A DNA stretch of 33,225 nucleotides, from positions 1 to 33,225 of IMG/VR virus record IMGVR_UViG_3300013093_000143; one strand, 5' to 3'. The translations under genes were made by a program, and so were the position numbers. A model generated the notes under the pieces. It was not told the DNA's origin. It did no database searches and was given only the letters and a program-made list of their open reading frames with translations. Below are positions 2 through 20,397 of the stretch, in pieces. How positions within the stretch are numbered: position 1 is the stretch's first letter; each line of letters begins with the position of its first letter. Source of the stretch: a virus.

Positions 2-2302
2 TATTTAGCAAAACTCCCAGCAGAAGGCGAAACACTACTTTTAGTTCAGCAAAAACCTGTTAAAAAAGAAGGTAAGCCTGTTCTGCATAACGATGGCACC
101 CCAAAATACACTTGGTTGCCTTCTCTGCCAACCAAAATCAAGCCTGAAACAGCCTTGTACGTCAACACAGGTAGTTTCATTATCGATCGTTTTGAGAACG
201 GCAAGCTATCTGCTTCATCTGCCAATTGCGAGCATGTGCTCTTTTTGATGTTAGATGACATCGGAACCAAGTCTAAGACACCGCCGCTCGAACCAACATG
301 GAAGATCGAAACATCTCCCGGCAATCAGCAGTGGGGTTACATATTTGACTTTGATAACCAGCCATCTAAAGGTGAGTTCACCGCTGCAATTACGGCGATT
401 GCTGCCGCTGGATACACTGATGGGGGAGCCACGAACGCAGTGCGTAACGTGCGCGTACCCGGCTCTATCAATCTAAAGGCTGGCAAGGATAACTTTGCTG
501 CCAAACTAATAGAATTTAATGCCGAGCGTGAGTTTACGCTTGAGCAAATCTGCGACGCGCTGGGGGTTGTGCCGAATGATGCAGACACAGCCTCCATGCA
601 GCGTATCGCGCTCACTGACGATGGTGACGACGATATACTGCAATGGGTTTCCGATAACGGTATGTTGCTCGAGAAAGCCAATGGCGCTGGGTGGTACGGT
701 ATCGTTTGCCCCAACAGTGCTGAACATAGCGATGGCAACCCAATGGCACGTTATCACCCCGTCAATCGGGCATTTTGCTGCTATCACGAGCATTGCCAGT
801 CGTTTGATTCGCATGCTTATCTTGAATGGGCAGCCGACAATGGCGCGCCAAAACATCAACCCGGAGTTCGCTCCGAATTATTAACCGAAAAAATGGCTAA
901 GGCTTTAGAGCTAATTACGCCAACAACCATGTTTTCTGATGCTTCCAAAATCATTGCGGAAATAGAAAGAAAAGAGTTAGCCAGAATAGAAAAGGAAGAT
1001 TGGTATGAACGATTCGCGTATGTCCAAGACGACGACGCTTACTTCGATCTTGTCGAAAGACGGGAGATCTCTCGAGGCACGTTTAACGCAATATTTCGAC
1101 ATATTAATTGCCGATCAGTTCACACAGGACGCAAAATTGAAGCCTCAGTCTGCTACGACGAAAACAGACAAGCTCACAATGCCAAAGCTTTAGTTGGTAT
1201 TACCTACGCGGCTGGCGAATCCGTATTTGTTGGGCGTGAAGGTGATGTGTACGGCAATCGTTGGGTAGATGCTAGACCCGATATACAAGATGTAGAGGTC
1301 GGTGATATTTCCATGTGGACAGACTTGCTCGAGCGCCTTGTGCCAATCGAGGCAGACCGCAATCACTTGCTCGATATTATGGCGTTCAAACTTCAGCATC
1401 CAAACATCAAAATTAACCATGCAGTATTGCATGTGGGCGATGAAGGTTGCGGCAAAGATACCATGTGGGCGCCGTTTATCTGGTCAGTCTGTGGAGCGCG
1501 TTTAAAGAATCGCGGTTACATGGATAGCGATAGCTTGCATTCGCAGTGGGGATATGACCTCGAATCAGAGATTTTGATTATCAACGAATTGAAAGAGCCA
1601 GACGCAGCCGCTCGCCGTGCATTGGCGAACAAACTCAAGCCAATCATTGCAGCGCCTCCCGAGATGCTCAACATCAATCGTAAGGGTTTACACCCATACC
1701 AGATGGCTAATAGGCTATTCGTATTGGCATTCTCGAATGAGCAAATTCCTATTAGTTTGGCATCACAAGATAGAAGATGGTTTTGTATCCAATCGGATAC
1801 ACCTCGCATGACTAATGGTGAAGGTAAACGCATTTGGGATTGGTATAACGCTGGGGGCTTTGAGCAAATAGCTGCTAGCTTGTGGGATCGCGACGTATCA
1901 CACTTTAACCCGGGCGAAACGCCGGGCATGACTGAGTTCAAAATGAATTTGATTGAGCATGGTAGGTCAATGGCTGAATCCTTTATCGTAGAAATGCTCA
2001 AAAACCGCGTCGGTGAGTTTGCTCGCGGCGTAATTGGTTCGCCGTTCCATATCGTATGCGATAAGCTAGCTAGCCTTGCGCCATCGGGAACCAAGGTACC
2101 CCAAAGCGCTTTGCTTCATGCACTTAAAGAGGCGGGCTGGGTAGACATGGGGCGGATTGCATCGAACGATTACCCCAACAAAAAGCATATTTTTGTGGCG
2201 CCAGAGGTTCAGGATCAATACAAAAAATCGGATTTACGGCGTATGATTGAGGTACCACCTGAGCCAAAAGCCGTAGTATTAGATATGAAACGGAGTGCGT
2301 AA
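2..2302 (+). CDS. Primase-polymerase/helicase (DUF5906-like), 5' end outside window
   Basis: The frame is open from base 2, so the true start lies upstream and 766 residues are visible. It probably primes and unwinds phage DNA. The N-terminal part looks like an archaeo-eukaryotic primase: an acidic LMLDDIG motif near base 254, SPGNQQWGY at 314-340 and RNVRVPGSINLK at 443-478, as in RepB- and NrS-1-type primases. A Cys/His cluster (CPNSAEH, then CCYHEHC) at 707-796 resembles a zinc-binding site. The C-terminal half is a superfamily-3-like helicase of the DUF5906 kind: Walker A GDEGCGKDT at 1436-1462, Walker B-like ILIINE at 1571-1588, then FSNEQIP and QDRRW, which fit sensor and arginine-finger positions. 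The stop overlaps the methyltransferase start by one base (TAATG). The family is known from phage replication modules; assigning polymerase activity is inference. Confidence 0.85.
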   Translation, partial: YLAKLPAEGETLLLVQQKPVKKEGKPVLHNDGTPKYTWLPSLPTKIKPETALYVNTGSFIIDRFENGKLSASSANCEHVLFLMLDDIGTKSKTPPLEPTWKIETSPGNQQWGYIFDFDNQPSKGEFTAAITAIAAAGYTDGGATNAVRNVRVPGSINLKAGKDNFAAKLIEFNAEREFTLEQICDALGVVPNDADTASMQRIALTDDGDDDILQWVSDNGMLLEKANGAGWYGIVCPNSAEHSDGNPMARYHPVNRAFCCYHEHCQSFDSHAYLEWAADNGAPKHQPGVRSELLTEKMAKALELITPTTMFSDASKIIAEIERKELARIEKEDWYERFAYVQDDDAYFDLVERREISRGTFNAIFRHINCRSVHTGRKIEASVCYDENRQAHNAKALVGITYAAGESVFVGREGDVYGNRWVDARPDIQDVEVGDISMWTDLLERLVPIEADRNHLLDIMAFKLQHPNIKINHAVLHVGDEGCGKDTMWAPFIWSVCGARLKNRGYMDSDSLHSQWGYDLESEILIINELKEPDAAARRALANKLKPIIAAPPEMLNINRKGLHPYQMANRLFVLAFSNEQIPISLASQDRRWFCIQSDTPRMTNGEGKRIWDWYNAGGFEQIAASLWDRDVSHFNPGETPGMTEFKMNLIEHGRSMAESFIVEMLKNRVGEFARGVIGSPFHIVCDKLASLAPSGTKVPQSALLHALKEAGWVDMGRIASNDYPNKKHIFVAPEVQDQYKKSDLRRMIEVPPEPKAVVLDMKRSA

Positions 2303-3309
2303 TGCGATACTTATCAGTTTGTAGTGGTATCGAAGCAACGACGATGGCTTGGCATCATATGGGATGGAAAGCTTCTGGTTTTTCTGAAATAGAACCTTTT
2401 CCGTCTGCGGTGTTAGCGCATCACTATCCAACTGTCACAAACTTTGGTGACATGACTAAATACAAAGAATGGAACTTAAATGAATCAATTGACCTCCTCG
2501 TCGGCGGAACTCCCTGCCAATCTTTCTCAGTCGCAGGGCTTAGAAAAGGAATGGATGATCCGCGCGGTAACTTGGCACTCGTCTATTGTGGCATGCTTGA
2601 CCACTTTAAGCCAAAATGGTTCGTCTGGGAAAACGTCCCCGGTGTCTTGTCATCGTCAGGAGGACGGGACTTTGGTTCCTTCCTCGGGGCGTTGGCAGAA
2701 CTCGGGTATGGGTTCTCCTACAGAGTGTTGGACGCTCGTTTCTTCGGAGTGGCACAGCGACGCAGAAGAGTGTTTGTTGTCGGCTACCTTGGAGATTGGC
2801 GACCTACCGCCGCAGTATTATTTGAGCAAAATAGCTTGCGCCGGGATATTACGCCGCGCCCATCGCCGACAAAAGGATCTCCCGCGTACTTTGAAAGTAG
2901 CCTTGCTCAATATCGCGAGGGAGATATTGCAGAAACCCTTAAAGCAAGCGGTGGAGTCCTCGCTGGAGGAAGTGAAACCTTCATAGTTCAAAAGGCATAT
3001 GAAACTCACCCTGCGGATAGCCGTGTTAAAGAAATGGGTGAAACTTGTCAAACAGTGACAAGCCGTTGGGGTACAGGCGGAGGCAACGTGCCATTGATTG
3101 AAAATAACGCTACCATACGAAGATTGACACCCGTTGAATGTGAGCGATTACAGGGTTTTCCTGATAACTTTACGAATGTTCCTTGGCGTAAAAGTTTAGC
3201 TTCACCAGATGGTTTGAGATATAAAGCGTTAGGTAATTCAATGGCAGTGCCTGTAATGCAATGGATTGGAGAAGGTATTGACATTGTTAAACAAAACCTA
3301 AATGATTAG
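2302..3309 (+). CDS. DNA cytosine-5 methyltransferase (orphan, Dcm-like)
   Basis: This 335-residue protein shows the ordered C5-methyltransferase motifs. Motif I is LSVCSGIE (residues 4-11, AdoMet binding). Motif IV is GGTPCQSFS with catalytic Cys72. Motif VI is WENVPG (109-114), motif VIII is AQRRRRVFVVG (151-161), motif IX is RRLTPVECERLQGFP (273-287) and motif X is ALGNSMAVPV (309-318). The target-recognition region lies between motifs VIII and IX (about 165-270), so the target sequence cannot be read from here. The length is normal for the family and no motif is missing. No restriction endonuclease is adjacent, so self-protection against host restriction or methyl-directed regulation is more likely than a restriction-modification pair. 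It is translationally coupled to the primase-helicase by a 1-nt overlap. Confidence 0.95.
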   Translation: MRYLSVCSGIEATTMAWHHMGWKASGFSEIEPFPSAVLAHHYPTVTNFGDMTKYKEWNLNESIDLLVGGTPCQSFSVAGLRKGMDDPRGNLALVYCGMLDHFKPKWFVWENVPGVLSSSGGRDFGSFLGALAELGYGFSYRVLDARFFGVAQRRRRVFVVGYLGDWRPTAAVLFEQNSLRRDITPRPSPTKGSPAYFESSLAQYREGDIAETLKASGGVLAGGSETFIVQKAYETHPADSRVKEMGETCQTVTSRWGTGGGNVPLIENNATIRRLTPVECERLQGFPDNFTNVPWRKSLASPDGLRYKALGNSMAVPVMQWIGEGIDIVKQNLND

Positions 3310-7750: not shown

Positions 7751-8164
7751 ATGGAGCGTTTTACACCAGATCCCCTATTTTATTCAATTGACCATAAGAC
7801 CGATAAAATCGAAGCTACCGAAGAAGAGATTGCCAACATCTATGATGCTGCCTATCGCGGTCTTGCCGGTGACGCACTAGCTATAGCTGCTGGCTTTTTG
7901 CCCGTAGACTTCAATCGTCTTTGCCAATTTGACCCAAAAGCTGCCGAAGCGGTTATTTATGGTCGCGCTAAAAATCACGCAGATGTAAGCGGTTCCTTAA
8001 TGAGAAACGCTCTCAATGGCGACACCAAAGCTGCAACGACAGTGCTCACGCACTTACATGGCTGGAAACCTGCCAAGCCAGAAGCTGATAGCTCCAATGA
8101 ATTACGCATCGTCATTGAGAATACGCTGCCAGACCCCACCCCCGAGCAGAAAGCTATTAGCTAA
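7751..8164 (+). CDS. terS: Terminase small subunit (probable)
   Basis: A 137-residue protein starting behind AGGAGGT (7740-7746). It would recognise phage DNA and recruit the large subunit for packaging. The helical segment YRGLAGDALAIAAGFLPVDF (about 35-54) resembles the helix-turn-helix DNA-binding head of small terminases. The middle (SGSLMRNALNGDTKAATTVL) fits the oligomerisation helices, and the tail is acidic and flexible. The main evidence is position: its stop overlaps the large-subunit start by one base (TAATG), and it is first in the structural operon. No motif is diagnostic. Confidence 0.7.
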   Translation: MERFTPDPLFYSIDHKTDKIEATEEEIANIYDAAYRGLAGDALAIAAGFLPVDFNRLCQFDPKAAEAVIYGRAKNHADVSGSLMRNALNGDTKAATTVLTHLHGWKPAKPEADSSNELRIVIENTLPDPTPEQKAIS

Positions 8165-9485: not shown

Positions 9486-10892
9486 ATGTCTGATATAAGC
9501 ATCTCCAATACATCCCTACCTTCTCCCTTGATGGAGTTTCTTCAGACGGATTCTATTGAACCGGGCAGTCCCGCAGGTTATCAGACTTGTAAAGCCATTT
9601 TTGAGTACCACCCGCTAGCTGCTAAGATTATTGAAAAACCCATCGTATTAGCTTTATCAAAACCACGTTTAATTGCGATGGATGTACACCCAAAAGAAAT
9701 GTTAATTAAAGCGTTTCATGAAGAGTGGAATAATTTAGATGCGACTAATCTTATCCGTGACGTAACCTTTCTTAAACGTGTATATGGTGTAGCCGCAATT
9801 GTTTATGGCGCCGAAGGTATTCCAACTGACCAAGAGATTGATCCTTGGAAGTTGCCCGATTTGAATTTGTACTTTAATAAACTTGACCCGTTAAACCTTG
9901 CTGGCTCAACCGTCACCAACCAAAACCCCAACGCGCCAGACTTTCAAAAGCCGTTATCGTACATTACGGCTGCGGGTCAACCTTATCATCCAAGTCGTAG
10001 CTGTATCGTGTTTAACAATACGCCGATTTATTTAAGCTTCCAGCCATCCGGTTTTGGTTTTACAGGTCGTTCAGTATTTCAGCGCGCCCTGTATCCTTTG
10101 AAATCATTCGTTCAGTCTATGGTTACTGACGATTTGGTCACTTTCAAGGCGGGTCTGCTGGTTATTAAGCAAAAACAATCAGGCTCTATCGTAAATCGTT
10201 TGATGCAAACAGCCGCTGGTATTAAGCGTAGCTACTTGCAACAAGGTACCACCGGTAACGTCTTATCAATTGATATTGATGAGGACATTGAGTCTATCGA
10301 CTTGAACAATACCGACACCGCGATGACTACTGCGCGTGATAACATTATCGCCAACATTGCAGCCGCAACCGACGTGCCAGCCATTCTCTTAAAAGATGAA
10401 GCTCTAGCCAACAGCTTTGCAGAAGGCAGTCAAGACGCAATTGCAATTGCTCAGTATGTCACAGGGTTACGCAACGATATGCGAACTTTGTTTGAATTTT
10501 TTGACAAAATCGTAATGCACCGCGCATGGAACAAACAATTTTTTGAAGCAATTCAAAATAAATATCCCGAAATGTACGCAGGAAAAACGTATGAACAAGC
10601 GTTCTACGAATGGAAAGATGCGTTTACTCCAAGTTGGGACTCTATGATCGAGGAAACTCCAAGCGAATTAGTTAAAACAGACGAAGTTAAGCTTAAAGGT
10701 ATGACTGAAGTACTTCGTACTCTTTTACCTGTAATTGACCCACAAAACAGAGCTAACTTAATTCAATGGGCGCAAGACAATCTGTCTGAAATGCCAGAAA
10801 TGTTTAAATCGAATATGCAATTGGATATGGATGATATTGCGGAATACGAAATTCCAATCCCAGAACAGACTAATTTACCTAAATTAGCTTAA
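9486..10892 (+). CDS. Portal protein (DUF1073-like)
   Basis: A 468-residue protein directly after terL, where the portal is expected. Portals form the dodecameric ring at the packaging vertex and nucleate the head. The N-terminal region (HPLAAKIIEKPIVLAL, about 42-57) leads to a mixed alpha/beta body. The DUF1073-like signature PAILLKDEALANSFAEGSQD is near 298-317, followed by the long stem helices (YVTGLRNDMRTLFEFFDKIV). The C-terminus is acidic and helical. It starts at ATG 9486 after GGGAAT. The 266-aa minor head protein follows 10 nt downstream. Family assignment is from overall pattern and gene order. Confidence 0.85.
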   Translation: MSDISISNTSLPSPLMEFLQTDSIEPGSPAGYQTCKAIFEYHPLAAKIIEKPIVLALSKPRLIAMDVHPKEMLIKAFHEEWNNLDATNLIRDVTFLKRVYGVAAIVYGAEGIPTDQEIDPWKLPDLNLYFNKLDPLNLAGSTVTNQNPNAPDFQKPLSYITAAGQPYHPSRSCIVFNNTPIYLSFQPSGFGFTGRSVFQRALYPLKSFVQSMVTDDLVTFKAGLLVIKQKQSGSIVNRLMQTAAGIKRSYLQQGTTGNVLSIDIDEDIESIDLNNTDTAMTTARDNIIANIAAATDVPAILLKDEALANSFAEGSQDAIAIAQYVTGLRNDMRTLFEFFDKIVMHRAWNKQFFEAIQNKYPEMYAGKTYEQAFYEWKDAFTPSWDSMIEETPSELVKTDEVKLKGMTEVLRTLLPVIDPQNRANLIQWAQDNLSEMPEMFKSNMQLDMDDIAEYEIPIPEQTNLPKLA

Positions 10893-10902
10893 AGACAAAG
10901 CA

Positions 10903-11703
10903 ATGACTTTCTACGAAGTCCTTACGCAAGCGGTCAATTACTACATCACATATGGCTTTGAGAACGAAGCTAGACTTAAATATTGGATGGAAGAGCTTAA
11001 AACTGCGGCTGTAAAATCATTAATTACGCCTGAAAAGCTGCAAAAAGAATTAGAGCGCTCTTTAAAAGGTGCTTTTGACCGCTTAGTGACCAAAGGTGGG
11101 CTTGTAAACAAGGATGTTAGCCGCTTTACTGTGGATAAACTGACCCCTAGATTGCGCGCTGAATTGGATCGCCGCATCGTTGCGAGTGCCAACTTAATCA
11201 AATATAACCGTGAAGAATCGATTAGCAACACGCTGCGTCGCTTTTCCGGATGGGCTACATCGATTCCGCCCGGCGGAAGTAAGACGATCAATCGTCAAGA
11301 AGAGAAAAAACACATTAAAAAAGAGCTCGGCATGCTGCCGTTTAAAGAGCGCCGCGTCATTATTGACCAAACGCACAAACTAGTAGCCAATATCAATGAA
11401 ATCGTAGCGCTCGATGCGGGCGCGATTGCTGCACAATGGCATAGCAATTGGCGTCAAGCGAACTACGATTATCGCGAAGATCACCGTGAATTGGATGACA
11501 AAATATTTTTGATACGCAATAGCTGGGCGCAAAAAAATGGTTACGTCAAACCAAAAAATGGCTATACTACGGATGTAGTCGCTCCCGGCGAAGAGGTATA
11601 TTGTCGGTGTAGGTATAAGTATTTATACCGGGTGAGTCAACTGCCCGACGAAATGATTACCCAAAAAGGTAAAGAAGCGTTACAATCCAAGAAAATTTAT
11701 TAG
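10903..11703 (+). CDS. Minor head / head morphogenesis protein (Mu gpF-like)
   Basis: A 266-residue basic, helical protein between portal and protease, where SPP1 gp7/Mu gpF-type minor head proteins lie. The C-terminal signature of that family is visible: HSNWRQANYDYREDHRELDD (about 184-204), PGEEVYCRCRYKYL, with a spaced His and paired Cys. Such proteins associate with the portal and are packaged in the head, possibly ejected with the DNA. The ribosome-binding site is poor, so it may be translated by coupling with the portal gene. Confidence 0.8.
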   Translation: MTFYEVLTQAVNYYITYGFENEARLKYWMEELKTAAVKSLITPEKLQKELERSLKGAFDRLVTKGGLVNKDVSRFTVDKLTPRLRAELDRRIVASANLIKYNREESISNTLRRFSGWATSIPPGGSKTINRQEEKKHIKKELGMLPFKERRVIIDQTHKLVANINEIVALDAGAIAAQWHSNWRQANYDYREDHRELDDKIFLIRNSWAQKNGYVKPKNGYTTDVVAPGEEVYCRCRYKYLYRVSQLPDEMITQKGKEALQSKKIY

Positions 11704-11714
11704 GGTTTTAACCT

Positions 11715-13532
11715 ATGCCATTTCAGTCGGAAAACCAACGAAAAGCAATGTACGCCGCTGCTGCGGGCAAGTCTAATATTGGTATTCCAAAATCAGTAGG
11801 TGAAAAATTCGTAAAACACAAAGATGACAGCGAGGAAGAAAACCTCGAATGGCTCAATGAACTTCTATTAAAAGAAATGAAAGTAAAAGCATTAAAAGAG
11901 GATTCTTTGATATCTGCGCCCGTCCTTTTGGCGCCTACAGAGTTTGAAACTGACAGCAATATTGTGGTTCGCAAAGGCGAATTAAGCCACGAATTACGCA
12001 AATTACAGATCAAAGACATTGGCGAAAAGCTGTATCAAGTCGCTCAACATGTTAAAGACATGAAAAAAGATGACGATTGCGACGAAGAAGTAGTACCTCG
12101 CTTTGGTGTTGAAGATTCTGAGGCTTGGCAAACTAAAGAGGGTAAAAACAAAAATGGCGGTTTAAATGAAAAAGGTCGTGAGTCCTATAACAAGGAACAT
12201 GGCGCCCATTTAAAAGCCCCGCAACCTGAAGGTGGTTCTCGTAAAGAGTCTTTCTGCGCTCGCATGAAAGGCATGAAAGCCAAATTAACGTCCGAAAAGA
12301 CCGCACACGATCCTAATTCACGGATTAATAAATCTTTAAAAAAGTGGAAATGCGATGCTGATGAGGCACAAAGCCATTTAGAAGAAATGTGCGACGCTTT
12401 GATTGAGTACGCTCAAGCTATCCCTGATAGTGACCCATGTTGGGAAGGTTACACTCAATATGGCATGAAAGAAAAAGACGGGAAAAGCGTACCAAATTGC
12501 GTACCAGATGCCGAAAACGAAGCAATTGAACAAAATGCTAAATTAGTTCCAGAGCCACCAAAAGAAGTAAAACCTGAAGATAACATGGGCGGCGCTCAAG
12601 GTAGAGCTGCTGGCATTATGTTTATTACCCCGAACGAAGAAGTTTTAATGATTCGTAGAGGTATGGGCGGAGGTGATTATCCCGGAACTTGGTGTATTCC
12701 CGGCGGACACCAAAAAGGTAATGAAACCATTGAAGAATGCGCTCGCCGTGAATGTTTAGAAGAAACTGGCATTGACTACAAAGGCAAGCTAGAAGTTCTT
12801 TATGATGACGGACAATTCTGCTATTACGTTGCTCACAATTTCTCGAAAGAAGAAGTAAAACTAAATTACGAATCTTCTGGTTCTGATTGGTGTAGCCCAA
12901 CAGTGCCGCCAATGCCACTACATCCGGGCTTAGAAAATGCGTTCAAAATTGCTATGGCTAAGACTGAAACTGATGTAGCCAAATTAATCGCTGAAGGTTT
13001 ATTAGCTAGCCCACAGATGTACGCCAACATTGCTTTGCTAGCAATTCGCATCACAGGTACTGGTTTAGCGTTCCGTTCAAGCATTGGCGAACATGTTTGG
13101 CGTGATCCATCTTTGTATTTAAACGATGAGTTTTTACAGCGTTGTAACGGCTTGATGGTAATCATGGATCATCCTGAAACTCAAGTATTAACAACCGAAG
13201 AGTTTAAAAATCGTGCAGTTGGTTCTGTTTTGCTACCTTACATTAAAGGCGATGAAGTCTGGGGTATTGCAAAGATCTATGACCAAGATGCGATTTCCGA
13301 AATTTTGGAAGGCGAAGTATCGACTTCCCCAGCAGTTGTTTTTGACCAAACTGCTGGTAACATTACACTTACAACCGAGAATGGCGAGCCACTCTTGATT
13401 GAGGGTGTGCCATTCCTGCTGGATCACATAGCAATCGTTACGAAAGCTAGGGGTTCAAAGGGAGTATGGGACAAAGGCGGCGACGCCGCTGGAGTTTTAT
13501 TAACTAACAATGAGGTGTCTGAAAATGACTGA
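11715..13532 (+). CDS. Composite capsid protease: small head modules + Nudix hydrolase + DUF2213-like prohead protease
   Basis: A 605-residue mosaic. Residues 1-35 (PFQSENQRKAMYAAAAGKS) match a short module common in phage head genes. Residues 135-213 (NKNGGLNEKGRESYNKEHGA, RKESFCARMKGM, LKKWKC) look like DUF6321. Residues 241-263 carry CWEGYTQYGMKEKDGKSVPN then CVP, another recurring phage motif. Residues 298-400 hold a Nudix fold with an intact box: GHQKGNETIEEC then ARRECLEETGI (331-353). Residues 436-590 resemble the DUF2213 prohead protease, with MDHP (His486), VSTSPAV (Ser536/Ser538) and LDHIAI (His571) as candidate catalytic residues. The protease would remove scaffold during head maturation; the Nudix substrate is unknown. 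The reading frame is continuous. The next start overlaps its last 8 nt. Confidence 0.8.
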   Translation: MPFQSENQRKAMYAAAAGKSNIGIPKSVGEKFVKHKDDSEEENLEWLNELLLKEMKVKALKEDSLISAPVLLAPTEFETDSNIVVRKGELSHELRKLQIKDIGEKLYQVAQHVKDMKKDDDCDEEVVPRFGVEDSEAWQTKEGKNKNGGLNEKGRESYNKEHGAHLKAPQPEGGSRKESFCARMKGMKAKLTSEKTAHDPNSRINKSLKKWKCDADEAQSHLEEMCDALIEYAQAIPDSDPCWEGYTQYGMKEKDGKSVPNCVPDAENEAIEQNAKLVPEPPKEVKPEDNMGGAQGRAAGIMFITPNEEVLMIRRGMGGGDYPGTWCIPGGHQKGNETIEECARRECLEETGIDYKGKLEVLYDDGQFCYYVAHNFSKEEVKLNYESSGSDWCSPTVPPMPLHPGLENAFKIAMAKTETDVAKLIAEGLLASPQMYANIALLAIRITGTGLAFRSSIGEHVWRDPSLYLNDEFLQRCNGLMVIMDHPETQVLTTEEFKNRAVGSVLLPYIKGDEVWGIAKIYDQDAISEILEGEVSTSPAVVFDQTAGNITLTTENGEPLLIEGVPFLLDHIAIVTKARGSKGVWDKGGDAAGVLLTNNEVSEND

Positions 13533-14364
13533 AAATAAGATTGAGCCAAAGGCAGATGCCCAAGGCGATAAATTAGATGCCATTATGTCTTTATTGGGAA
13601 AAACAATGTCCCGTTTAGATGAAATGGAAAAAAACCTTCCTGCGCCACCCCTAGTAACTGCGGCTGATAAAAAAGCTAAAGCGAAAAAAGATGACGACAT
13701 GGAAGCATGTGACGATGATGAAGAAGAAGAAGCTAAGAAAGATGACGATGAGTCTGAAGCTAAAGCTAAGAAATTCATGATGCGTAAGGCTAAGAAGGAC
13801 GCAGAGGGATCTGATCCTAAAGAGCACGGCAAAGCTGGCGAGATCAAGCCAGATGACGAAGGCGAAATTGAACATCCGGGTCATATGGAGTTCAAAAAAG
13901 ACGACGACGAAGAAGATGACCGTAAAGATGACGACGAAGAAGCAGCTAAGAAAGATGACGAAGAAGCCGCATACGCTGATTGTCAAGCTAAAGCTGATTC
14001 TGTTTACTCAGCTTTTGGTAAATCTGCATCACGTCCATTACAAGGCGAAAGCTTAATGGCTTATCGCAAACGTATGCTCCGTGGTTTGCAAGCTCATAGC
14101 GACGAAATGAAAAACGTAAACATCAACAAGATTGCTGACGAAGCAATGTTGCAAATCGTTGAAAAACGTGTTTATGCTGACGCTCTTGCTGCTTCCCGTG
14201 GAACTGGCGCAATCGCAAAAGGTCAATTGATCGCGTTGCACAAGAAAGACCAAGCTGGTCGTACCATCACTGAATACCGTGGTGATATGGAAGCATGGTT
14301 AGGTGACTTCAAGCTCCCAACTCATCGGGTCGTGAAGTTTAATACTGAAAATGTTAAGCGATAA
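13525..14364 (+). CDS. Capsid scaffolding protein (probable)
   Basis: The start is set at ATG 13525 (MTENKIEPKADAQ...), 8 nt after GAGGTG; an ATG at 13510 lacks a ribosome-binding site. The product is 279 residues. The first half is low-complexity and highly charged, with runs of Asp, Glu and Lys (EACDDDEEEEAKKDDDESEA and similar up to about residue 150), as expected for a flexible scaffold core. The second half is helical (YADCQAKADSVYSAFGKSA, GESLMAYRKRMLRGLQAHS) and ends ITEYRGDMEAWLGDF, a tail I recall from scaffold-like proteins beside DUF2213 proteases. It lies between protease and capsid genes, the usual scaffold position. It is probably cleaved and expelled. Confidence 0.7.
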   Translation: MTENKIEPKADAQGDKLDAIMSLLGKTMSRLDEMEKNLPAPPLVTAADKKAKAKKDDDMEACDDDEEEEAKKDDDESEAKAKKFMMRKAKKDAEGSDPKEHGKAGEIKPDDEGEIEHPGHMEFKKDDDEEDDRKDDDEEAAKKDDEEAAYADCQAKADSVYSAFGKSASRPLQGESLMAYRKRMLRGLQAHSDEMKNVNINKIADEAMLQIVEKRVYADALAASRGTGAIAKGQLIALHKKDQAGRTITEYRGDMEAWLGDFKLPTHRVVKFNTENVKR

Positions 14365-15048: not shown

Positions 15049-16074
15049 ATGTCAGGTTTTGCACCTTCATATGTAACAGTAAATCCACACTTCATGATGC
15101 CTGAGCTGATTATGCAGTACAGCTTAGCTTCTGGTGCGTTTACAACTCTGGCAACAGAGAACCCAATGCCACGCTTAGGCGAGGCTGACCTTTATGTTTA
15201 CGCTAAAAAGGTTCAGTTGACGACTCAAGTATCTGCTAACCAATCGACTGCTAACCAGTTGCCAAGCGCATCTGTTATCCCTTCGATGATTAGTACTGCT
15301 ACTTATCGTCTGCAAACCCGCGCTCAGTACGACAACTTCGATGAAGCTGCTACTGGTGCTTGGGGCTATGCACTCCCAGAGGCTCTTCGTCTTGCTGCTC
15401 GTCAAGGTATCGCTCAGCAGTTGCGTAATGCTCTTCTCTATGGCTACAACCCAGCCAACGGCGAAGGCTTGCTCAATACTTCTGGCGCTACTCGCATCAA
15501 CTTAGGTGCAGACAGCAACGGTAACGTAGGCTACAGCACATGGGATTCTGGTCAATTAGCTCAGTTCTTGCTAAATGCAATCGGTAACTTAAAAACTACT
15601 ACATTGCAAATTGGTCAACCTTTGCGCTTGGTATTCCTTGCTCCACAGCGTTTCATTCAACAGATCAGCTACGGCGGTATCGTGTCCTTGACACAGTTCC
15701 AACGTATCGGCGCTGGTGTTGAAACTGCTGCTGGCTTGGTTGAAACCGTAGCTCAGTGGGCAGGTGGTGACGATGTAAGCTTTGCTGCTGATGACACTCT
15801 CATCGGTCAAGGTTACGGCGGTACTGACGCAATCATCTTAATTGCTCCAGAACTCAAGATCCCTAAAGCAAACTCTCGCATCAACACCAACGTATTTGCT
15901 GAATTGACACCAAATACAACTGCAACATCTTTGATGCTCTGCGACGTGGCTGCACCTACAGAGATTCCTACTCCATTGCCAGACGGTGGTATTACTACCC
16001 TCTACACAATGCGTAGCACCTCTGGTTGGGGTATCCGTCCAGAAGGTATGACGATTATTTCGGCTGCCTATTAA
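15049..16074 (+). CDS. Major capsid protein (DUF2184-like)
   Basis: A 341-residue protein with a strong ribosome-binding site (AAAGGAA), followed by a strong terminator, as usual for the most abundant virion protein. The sequence has the DUF2184 look: RAQYDNFDEAATGAWGYALP (about 91-110), LLYGYNPANGEGLLNTSGAT (about 129-148), and a long C-terminal half ending TSGWGIRPEGMTIISAAY. DUF2184 proteins adopt the HK97-type capsid fold and assemble into the icosahedral shell. There is no obvious N-terminal delta domain, in line with a separate scaffold gene. Confidence 0.88.
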   Translation: MSGFAPSYVTVNPHFMMPELIMQYSLASGAFTTLATENPMPRLGEADLYVYAKKVQLTTQVSANQSTANQLPSASVIPSMISTATYRLQTRAQYDNFDEAATGAWGYALPEALRLAARQGIAQQLRNALLYGYNPANGEGLLNTSGATRINLGADSNGNVGYSTWDSGQLAQFLLNAIGNLKTTTLQIGQPLRLVFLAPQRFIQQISYGGIVSLTQFQRIGAGVETAAGLVETVAQWAGGDDVSFAADDTLIGQGYGGTDAIILIAPELKIPKANSRINTNVFAELTPNTTATSLMLCDVAAPTEIPTPLPDGGITTLYTMRSTSGWGIRPEGMTIISAAY

Positions 16075-19101: not shown

Positions 19102-20397
19102 ATGCCAAATATTGTCAATGTCGTTGTCACCCAACAGGTGGCAAGCGCGCCTAATACGCTACAACAAACAGGCGCGTTTATCTCACAGGGAGCAACTACG
19201 CTCGCTGCGGGAACCCCTTATTTGCTAACTCAAGCAAGTAGCTTAGCAAGTATTTTATCTGGCGCCGTTTCTATCACTTCAATGATATTGAGCACAGGGA
19301 CAGTAACTGTAACTACAACTACTCCACACGGCATTCCTTCCGGTGACACTGTTGAAGTAAACATTACTGGTGTAACTCCCGCTGCTTACAACGGTACTTT
19401 TGCCGCAACTTCTACAGGTGCATATACGTTTACATATCCGTTGGCAGGTAGCCCCGGCTCTGTAACAACCCAAGGTGTTGTAACTTTGGAAGATGTCGCT
19501 GAACTTGTTGCAATGAACAATACTTTCTTTGCACAAGGAAGCGTCACACCTGTTTATGTATTGGAGTTAGGTACAAACACTGTAGCAAACGGTATAACCG
19601 CTTTAGAAGCATACATAGCTAATCCAACTATTCAGTTTTATAGCTATTTATTGCCAAAAACATGGGATATTACCGCCGCTCAAACAATGGCTAAACAGTA
19701 CGAAGGTACAACTGCACAAGTGTACTTTTATGTAACTACAACGCTAGCTACCTACACTGGGTGGGCAGGTATTAAATCTGTGTTTGCTTCATTGCAAAGC
19801 CCAAGTGCTCCATCAAGTGAATTTAGCGCCGCAGCTATTTTCTGGGCAACATTAAGTTACAATCCGGGCGCAAATAATTTAGCGCATCCGCTTGAGTACA
19901 CTTATGTTTACTCTGTCACTGCCTACAGTACCTTAACTAGCACACAACAAACTCAATTGTTGGCTGCTGGCGTTAACTGGATTGGCACTGGTGCCCAAGG
20001 CGGAATTAGCAATACTTTAATTGAAGGCGGCACGTTCATGGACTTGAACCCCTTTAATTATTGGTATTGTGTAGACTGGCTTTCAATTAATGTTGCTCAA
20101 GCTTTAGCAAATGCAATTATTAACGGAAGCAATTTGCCAACTAATCCGCTTTACTACAATCAAGCTGGTATTAATACTTTGCAGAAAGTAGCGCAAGCAA
20201 CAGTTAATAACGGTATTTCGTTTGGATTAATTCTTAGCCCAGCAACGGTTAACGCCATTTCGTTTGTAAACTATGTAGCACAACATCCTAGTGATTACGC
20301 TACTGGAACTTATAACGGTTTAAGCTTGACATTCGTACCAGCTAGAGGATTTAGCTCCATTACTATTTACTTAACTGCATCTAACATTCCAGTTTAA
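19102..20397 (+). CDS. Tail sheath protein with inserted E1-FCCH-like domain
   Basis: A 431-residue protein upstream of the tube gene, with AGGGGGC before its ATG. The start, MPNIVNVVVTQQVASAPNTL, and the ending GLSLTFVPARGFSSITIYL suit a DUF3383-like contractile sheath subunit, where terminal extensions link neighbours in the sheath mesh. Between about residues 57 and 127 there is an extra beta module (TVTVTTTTPHGIPSGDTVEV, PAAYNGTFAATS, YTFTYPLAG) that resembles E1-FCCH-like insertions. A related copy is in the baseplate wedge protein. The module would decorate the outside of the tail. The sheath assignment is firm by gene order, the module by internal similarity. Confidence 0.8.
   Translation: MPNIVNVVVTQQVASAPNTLQQTGAFISQGATTLAAGTPYLLTQASSLASILSGAVSITSMILSTGTVTVTTTTPHGIPSGDTVEVNITGVTPAAYNGTFAATSTGAYTFTYPLAGSPGSVTTQGVVTLEDVAELVAMNNTFFAQGSVTPVYVLELGTNTVANGITALEAYIANPTIQFYSYLLPKTWDITAAQTMAKQYEGTTAQVYFYVTTTLATYTGWAGIKSVFASLQSPSAPSSEFSAAAIFWATLSYNPGANNLAHPLEYTYVYSVTAYSTLTSTQQTQLLAAGVNWIGTGAQGGISNTLIEGGTFMDLNPFNYWYCVDWLSINVAQALANAIINGSNLPTNPLYYNQAGINTLQKVAQATVNNGISFGLILSPATVNAISFVNYVAQHPSDYATGTYNGLSLTFVPARGFSSITIYLTASNIPV

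Follow-up and report, generated by a model that had tools for sequence, protein, structure and literature searches.

A phage head-maturation protease fused to a probably active Nudix hydrolase and small N-terminal modules, possibly an injected head cargo

The DNA analysed here (the window, 33,225 nucleotides, IMG/VR virus record IMGVR_UViG_3300013093_000143) carries a head operon in which the gene for the terminase large subunit, starting at 8164, is followed by those for the portal, a MuF-like protein, a 605-residue fusion protein, a putative scaffold, a phrog_6268 protein (from 14375) and the probable major capsid protein (Table 1). The MuF and capsid calls rest on PHROGs profiles; their Pfam matches lie below cut-off. 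Since a tail sheath gene (at 19102) and baseplate genes lie downstream, the tail is contractile. At the left end of the window, positions 116-3309 hold a primase-like ORF and then a DNA methyltransferase ORF.

The fusion protein is encoded by one ORF of 605 codons with an ATG start and zero internal stops, and no minus-strand ORF longer than 115 residues was seen overlapping it. Three Pfam families exceed their curated cut-offs in it: DUF6321 (E 6.2e-21, covering profile positions 1-72 of 72), NUDIX (PF00293, residues 296-384, E 1.4e-15) and DUF2213 (PF09979, residues 460-580, E 1.5e-7). The last region also matches phrog_530, head maturation protease (E 1.8e-9), and the N-terminal module (N-module) has a weak phrog_16759 match. 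The earlier note, written from the sequence alone, had described a single uninterrupted frame holding all of these modules, with a complete Nudix box and a DUF2213-like protease; translation, Pfam and PHROGs bear this out, the box lies exactly where it had been placed, and the protease sits between the MuF-like gene and the capsid genes.

Table 1. The fusion protein, its modules and the neighbouring head genes (positions in the window)
Feature	Residues	Position	Strand	Evidence
Portal protein		9486..10892	+	PF06381 70.2 bits vs 33.8; phrog_146
MuF-like head morphogenesis protein		10903..11703	+	phrog_324 E 8e-25; PF04233 below cut-off
605-residue fusion (N-module, DUF6321, CW motif, Nudix, DUF2213 head-maturation protease)		11715..13532	+	kept in relatives
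N-terminal module (SENQRKAMYAAA...GIPKSVGEKF)	1-37	11715..11825	+	78/78 distinct family proteins, among the matches listed
DUF6321 (PF19846)	143-211	12141..12347	+	Pfam 75.3 bits vs cut-off 28.5
CW motif (CWEGY...VPNCVP), begins at C242	236-264	12420..12506	+	60/78 distinct family proteins, among the matches listed
Nudix domain	293-412	12591..12950	+	Pfam 57.9 bits vs 21.1; AlphaFold + VIA-align fold
Nudix box	331-353	12705..12773	+	R345, E346, E349, E350 invariant in 77/77, among the matches listed
DUF2213 protease region	428-590	12996..13484	+	Pfam 32 bits vs 22; phrog_530
Putative scaffold ORF		13525..14364	+	phrog_6216 C-terminal part, E 1.2e-42
Probable major capsid protein		15049..16074	+	phrog_264 E 5.1e-10, phrog_6671; PF09950 below cut-off

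A frame of this kind could be an assembly or sequencing artefact that fuses separate genes, a concern raised by the origin of the record in metagenomic collections and by relatives in which Nudix or DUF6321 are separate ORFs. However, close relatives keep the frame, and we therefore reject such an error as next to impossible. Eight of 80 loci (the best 80 of 274) have a best segment more than 90% identical to the fusion protein (L005, L006, L007, L020, L043, L044, L046 and L056; L numbers denote loci), and each has a single open frame across the Nudix-protease join. One of them, the 50,175-base contig L005, encodes a protein 100% identical to the fusion and may come from the same virus. In addition, all five modules are under purifying selection, with dN/dS (ratio of sums) of 0.140 for the N-module, 0.074 for DUF6321, 0.130 for CW, 0.175 for Nudix, the highest of the five, and 0.074 for DUF2213, values that are rough because the median dS is 0.8-1.3. 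Judged from these sequence data, namely three Pfam families over cut-off and the dN/dS of five modules, the module set exceeds chance.

To define the family, we combined three scans, one with the whole 605-residue protein as query and two with the protease part only, which kept the best 80 of 274, 312 and 497 relatives, respectively; the set thus represents near relatives. The 231 loci gave 83 distinct proteins, and dropping 5 that were contained in others left 78. Among the matches listed, 35 of these 78 have the order N-module-DUF6321-CW-Nudix-protease, 18 lack DUF6321, 17 lack both DUF6321 and CW, 7 carry CW before DUF6321, and one, L210 (also fetched as L281), lacks the Nudix, which is present in the other 77. 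DUF6321 occurs in 42 of the 78 (again among the matches listed). DUF6321 and CW are thus optional, and their order swaps between relatives. The loss can be clean: in L043 the DUF6321 stretch is absent while the flanks are 94 and 98% identical to the fusion protein. In five further loci (L433, L434, L436, L443 and L452) DUF6321 is a separate small upstream ORF, confirmed by Pfam for L433. A small DUF6321 ORF also lies directly after the capsid gene of the T7-like Prochlorococcus phage P-SCSP1a (L090, 3917-4171).

Among isolated phages, the N-module turned up in 4 of 50,697 records (E 0.3 for two of these) and CW, at E up to 0.1, in 287, mostly from cyanophages; CW is also present in an XkdF-type protease of the haloarchaeal virus HSTV-1. 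The cyanophages S-RIM8 and S-P4 share both modules with the fusion, carrying CW and then DUF6321 at the C-terminus of large proteins (with CW matched weakly in S-P4, E 0.0027). Unlike in the fusion, neither Nudix nor DUF2213 was found in these proteins, and the annotation as a structural protein occurs in the S-P4 record only. The cyanophage literature yielded no placement of any DUF6321 protein, and DUF6321 was not found in the open-access literature searched.

The protease and the ORF behind it have known counterparts. PHROG 6216, which includes pdc_04 of Pantoea phage PdC23 and gp4 of Klebsiella phage Chronis (43 and 40% identical to the fusion protein, respectively), has a Nudix and then DUF2213, as here, and matches residues 298-600 with E 1.3e-97. 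In these proteins, however, the Nudix lies at the very N-terminus, whereas 290 residues precede it in the fusion, and their frame runs on into the C-terminal part, whereas in the present virus this part is a separate ORF: profile positions 4-292 are covered by the fusion protein and 323-545 by the next ORF. That ORF starts at the ATG at 13525, the likelier choice since it overlaps the protease stop (13530-13532), or at the ATG at 13510. Across 158 loci, a set in which many entries are the same contig retrieved again, protease and C-terminal part share one frame in 81, are split in 72 and are cut by a contig end in 5. Many of the fused forms have an in-frame Met at the place corresponding to the split start, which makes an internal start plausible. 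We infer a scaffold role for the ORF from its position, an arrangement that we presume to resemble lambda C/Nu3 and herpes UL26/UL26.5.

In an alignment of 59 sequences, with identities as low as about 21%, three protease residues (H486, S536 and H571) never vary; they may form the catalytic triad, presumably a Ser-His-His triad like that of assemblin. The fold of the protease, for which an assemblin-like or S78-like type was considered, could not be placed because the structure searches with the Nudix-protease model returned lists filled by Nudix matches; the DUF2213 sequence profile, run against solved structures, found no relative, its two matches (E 0.36 and 0.6) being unrelated by name. 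The AlphaFold model of residues 292-599 was built from 59 diverse rows (33 with Nudix and protease, 26 with protease only) and gave the two-domain unit a pLDDT of 89.6 and a pTM of 0.85, the last 14 residues being disordered. For the whole protein (40 rows) the mean pLDDT was 50.2, the Nudix being modelled well but the protease and the bulk of the N-terminal half poorly. In the two-domain model the joining stretch (about residues 405-435) is ordered, with block pLDDT of 95-97, so the model does not support release of the Nudix by cleavage at this join, one form of the release by self-cleavage that the earlier note had suggested.

Several observations suggest that the Nudix is probably an active hydrolase. 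Its box fits the pattern G-x5-E-x7-R-E-U-x-E-E-x-G-U, with Cys as the U after RE. The REUXEE metal-binding glutamates are kept in every Nudix-bearing family protein (77 of 77, among the matches listed), as are, with the same scope, R344, R345, E346, E349, E350, G352 and E386. Some relatives have an insertion in the box, which is detected by alignment and missed by a regular expression. The predicted fold agrees with what had been expected from the sequence, as the model matches Dcp2 (4kg3, Z 16.3, rmsd 1.6, 115 aligned), MutT (3grn, Z 16.3, rmsd 2.2, 125 aligned; Foldseek E 1.2e-7), RenU (6uuf, Z 16.3, rmsd 2.2, 124 aligned) and the ADP-ribose-bound NrtR domain (3gz8, Z 16.2, rmsd 2.2, 119 aligned). 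These neighbours, a mixture of mRNA decapping, MutT, ApnA and ADP-ribose proteins, are tied in Z, and a PDB sequence search gave equally mixed Nudix relatives with plant NUDX1 as the best (E 2.7e-8); thus no substrate can be named. A viral structure library also returned Nudix proteins, several of which are longer phage proteins.

Joining a Nudix to a capsid protease has been described before. Available passages of one paper (PMC9503650; Viruses 2022, 14:1977) report T4-like NudE proteins of several phages fused to MuF, portal or a capsid-processing serine peptidase, assign these fusions to the T4 NudE clade, and propose that they are packaged and injected and that ADP-ribose-type signals are hydrolysed. 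The same three carriers are met here. DUF2213 with NUDIX is likewise named as a Pfam architecture in the part of PMC8770471 that was available. On the strength of these passages, the Nudix-protease fusion and the idea of its packaging and injection are already published, and the novelty that the earlier note gave to the pairing was overstated. Its remark that such parts usually occur in separate proteins stands for DUF6321 and CW, which do occur in other proteins, and fails for Nudix-DUF2213, a common fusion. The available passages of PMC9503650 hold no mention of DUF6321, CW, the N-module or a stand-alone Nudix beside the protease. Likewise, we found no description of a stand-alone Nudix beside the protease, or of optional and order-swapped N-terminal modules, in the open-access literature, where CW and the N-module were not searched by name.

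The same fusion recurs in other phages. With the fused unit of PdC23 as query, all 80 loci (the best 80 of 141) carry a Nudix-DUF2213 fusion with a C-terminal extension, and among isolated phages 12 of 50,697 records, some of them double entries, contain the Nudix-protease unit with a query coverage of 80% or more. Two annotations among these relatives look wrong: a Yersinia phage Nudix-protease fusion is labelled glycosyl transferase (L087, 3986-5617), and the gene between the PdC23 fusion and its capsid gene is labelled endosialidase (L002, 5303-6175).

The position of the Nudix varies among related head operons: on the protease, stand-alone upstream of it, on the portal, on MuF, or absent. 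Among 62 loci found with the fused unit of Shewanella phage vB_Sb_QDWS, Nudix and protease are fused in 41, and in 11 (L435, L437, L440, L444 and L453-L459) the Nudix has its own ORF immediately upstream, these stand-alone copies being tied to the head by gene position only. No Nudix was seen in 8 of the 62 (L432, L448-L451, L460, L462 and L463), and L464 is cut. In L461 the Nudix lies in another ORF (530-1435), joined to a domain whose metallopeptidase-like Pfam match is weak and below cut-off, and the protease there has no Nudix. The head block of Burkholderia phage Bcep781 is of the same kind, encoding both a PF06381 portal and a DUF2213 protease; unlike in the fusion, its Nudix is C-terminal on the portal gp17 (42% identical to that of the fusion) and its protease gp14 has none. 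Among the matches listed, this 42% identical Nudix is annotated as portal protein or NUDIX hydrolase in four records from three Burkholderia phages. In 38 Bcep781-like loci, a long portal-sized ORF carries the Nudix in 3 (Pfam-confirmed portal in L465 and L467) and a MuF-type ORF does so in 4 (the MuF type being confirmed in L491, L494 and L495); no Nudix was found in 31 within limited flanks. A PF00293 search of nine records, all of which may be fragments, gave exactly one match each. The head proteases of Escherichia phage Rac-SA53 and Actinobacillus phage vB_Apl-pPE4 are 59% identical to the fusion over the protease part, a match that ends before the Nudix; the Rac-SA53 ORF was checked and has no Nudix.

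Because the Nudix is found on different head proteins, namely protease, portal and MuF, an active hydrolase tied to the prohead is likely, as far as comparison and modelling can tell. We infer that the fusion protein is taken into the prohead (in many relatives on the same chain as the putative scaffold), that the protease would process head proteins, and that the Nudix would travel along as an enzyme. Most likely the Nudix would stay in the head and reach the next cell by injection, where it would split NDP-X compounds, for instance ADP-ribose derivatives, at an early stage of infection. This reading, of a contractile-tailed phage protease whose Nudix is a plausible injected cargo directed against nucleotide signals, is the one that we favour, with about even confidence. 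It agrees with the conservation of R345, E346, E349, E350 and E386 in the 77 Nudix-bearing proteins of 78 (among the matches listed). Against it, the Nudix is dispensable, as the loci, phages and Bcep781-like blocks without it indicate, and has the highest dN/dS. The box, moreover, is intact in 78 of the 80 PdC23-query loci (the best 80 of 141) and damaged in two, L388 and L391, prophage-type loci (ORFs from 3483 and 3486) in which one of two adjacent box glutamates is replaced by lysine; to judge from sequence, they are natural candidates for a dead enzyme. Should head-tied Nudix enzymes be injected, they would be at work ahead of all phage gene expression, when the destruction of nucleotide alarm signals would be well timed.

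The damaged boxes also bear on another reading, in which the Nudix would chiefly serve the protease as a structural or regulatory part, perhaps by sensing nucleotides or metals and so setting the time of proteolysis in the prohead. The ordered stretch between the domains and the frequency of the fusion (41/62; 80/80 of the best 80 of 141; 77/78 family proteins, among the matches listed) are in its favour, but related proteases do without a Nudix (L003, L210, L432 and L448-L451), the Nudix can instead be a separate ORF or part of a portal or MuF, and all 77 Nudix-bearing family proteins (among the matches listed) retain the catalytic residues. We thus consider this role unlikely; in particular, the purely structural domain that the earlier note had allowed for loses ground given this conservation and the 11 of 62 loci in which the Nudix has an ORF of its own. 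The conserved catalytic residues and those separate late ORFs would also suit an active Nudix that has a late role in the producing cell, with damaged nucleotides, capped RNA or signal molecules as possible targets, and that is joined to head proteins through late co-expression only, being neither packaged nor injected. MutT and decapping enzymes are indeed among the nearest structures, but mere co-expression needs no fusion to protease, portal and MuF, all of them head components, and we find this explanation rather doubtful. The natural arrangements (protease, stand-alone, portal, MuF, absent, two damaged boxes) provide ready comparisons for testing the role of the Nudix.

It is also tempting to speculate about the small modules, as all three (N-module, CW and DUF6321) may serve for docking. 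In a broader version, to which we give limited credence, they would be transferable tags for docking to the head, shuffled by unrelated phages onto capsid-bound proteins and here docking a protease with an enzyme cargo, while one head-linked Nudix lineage would have moved between protease, portal, MuF and stand-alone forms, acting in the head throughout. Such shuffling of small modules may hint at a general mechanism for bringing proteins into phage heads. As for the lineage, a tree of 68 Nudix domains separates 50 head-linked phage rows from 18 cellular rows by one branch found in 87% of 200 bootstraps; support for the phage/cellular branch is only 79/40, so a single origin of the head-linked Nudix is not shown. 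This tree was built on 129 columns for 68 rows, with many open forks, without a T4 NudE row and with the truncated L464 row dropped; its cellular rows are generic genes from a Nudix-box pattern scan of genome contigs and serve as outgroup only. Within it, the stand-alone copies group with protease-fused ones, beside the family of the 605-residue protein (90/98 and 90/96). Finally, the signature NxE[HS]x4W, a motif chosen after viewing the phage sequences, is present in 38 of 51 head-linked phage Nudix domains vs 0 of 18 in the pattern-picked cellular set.
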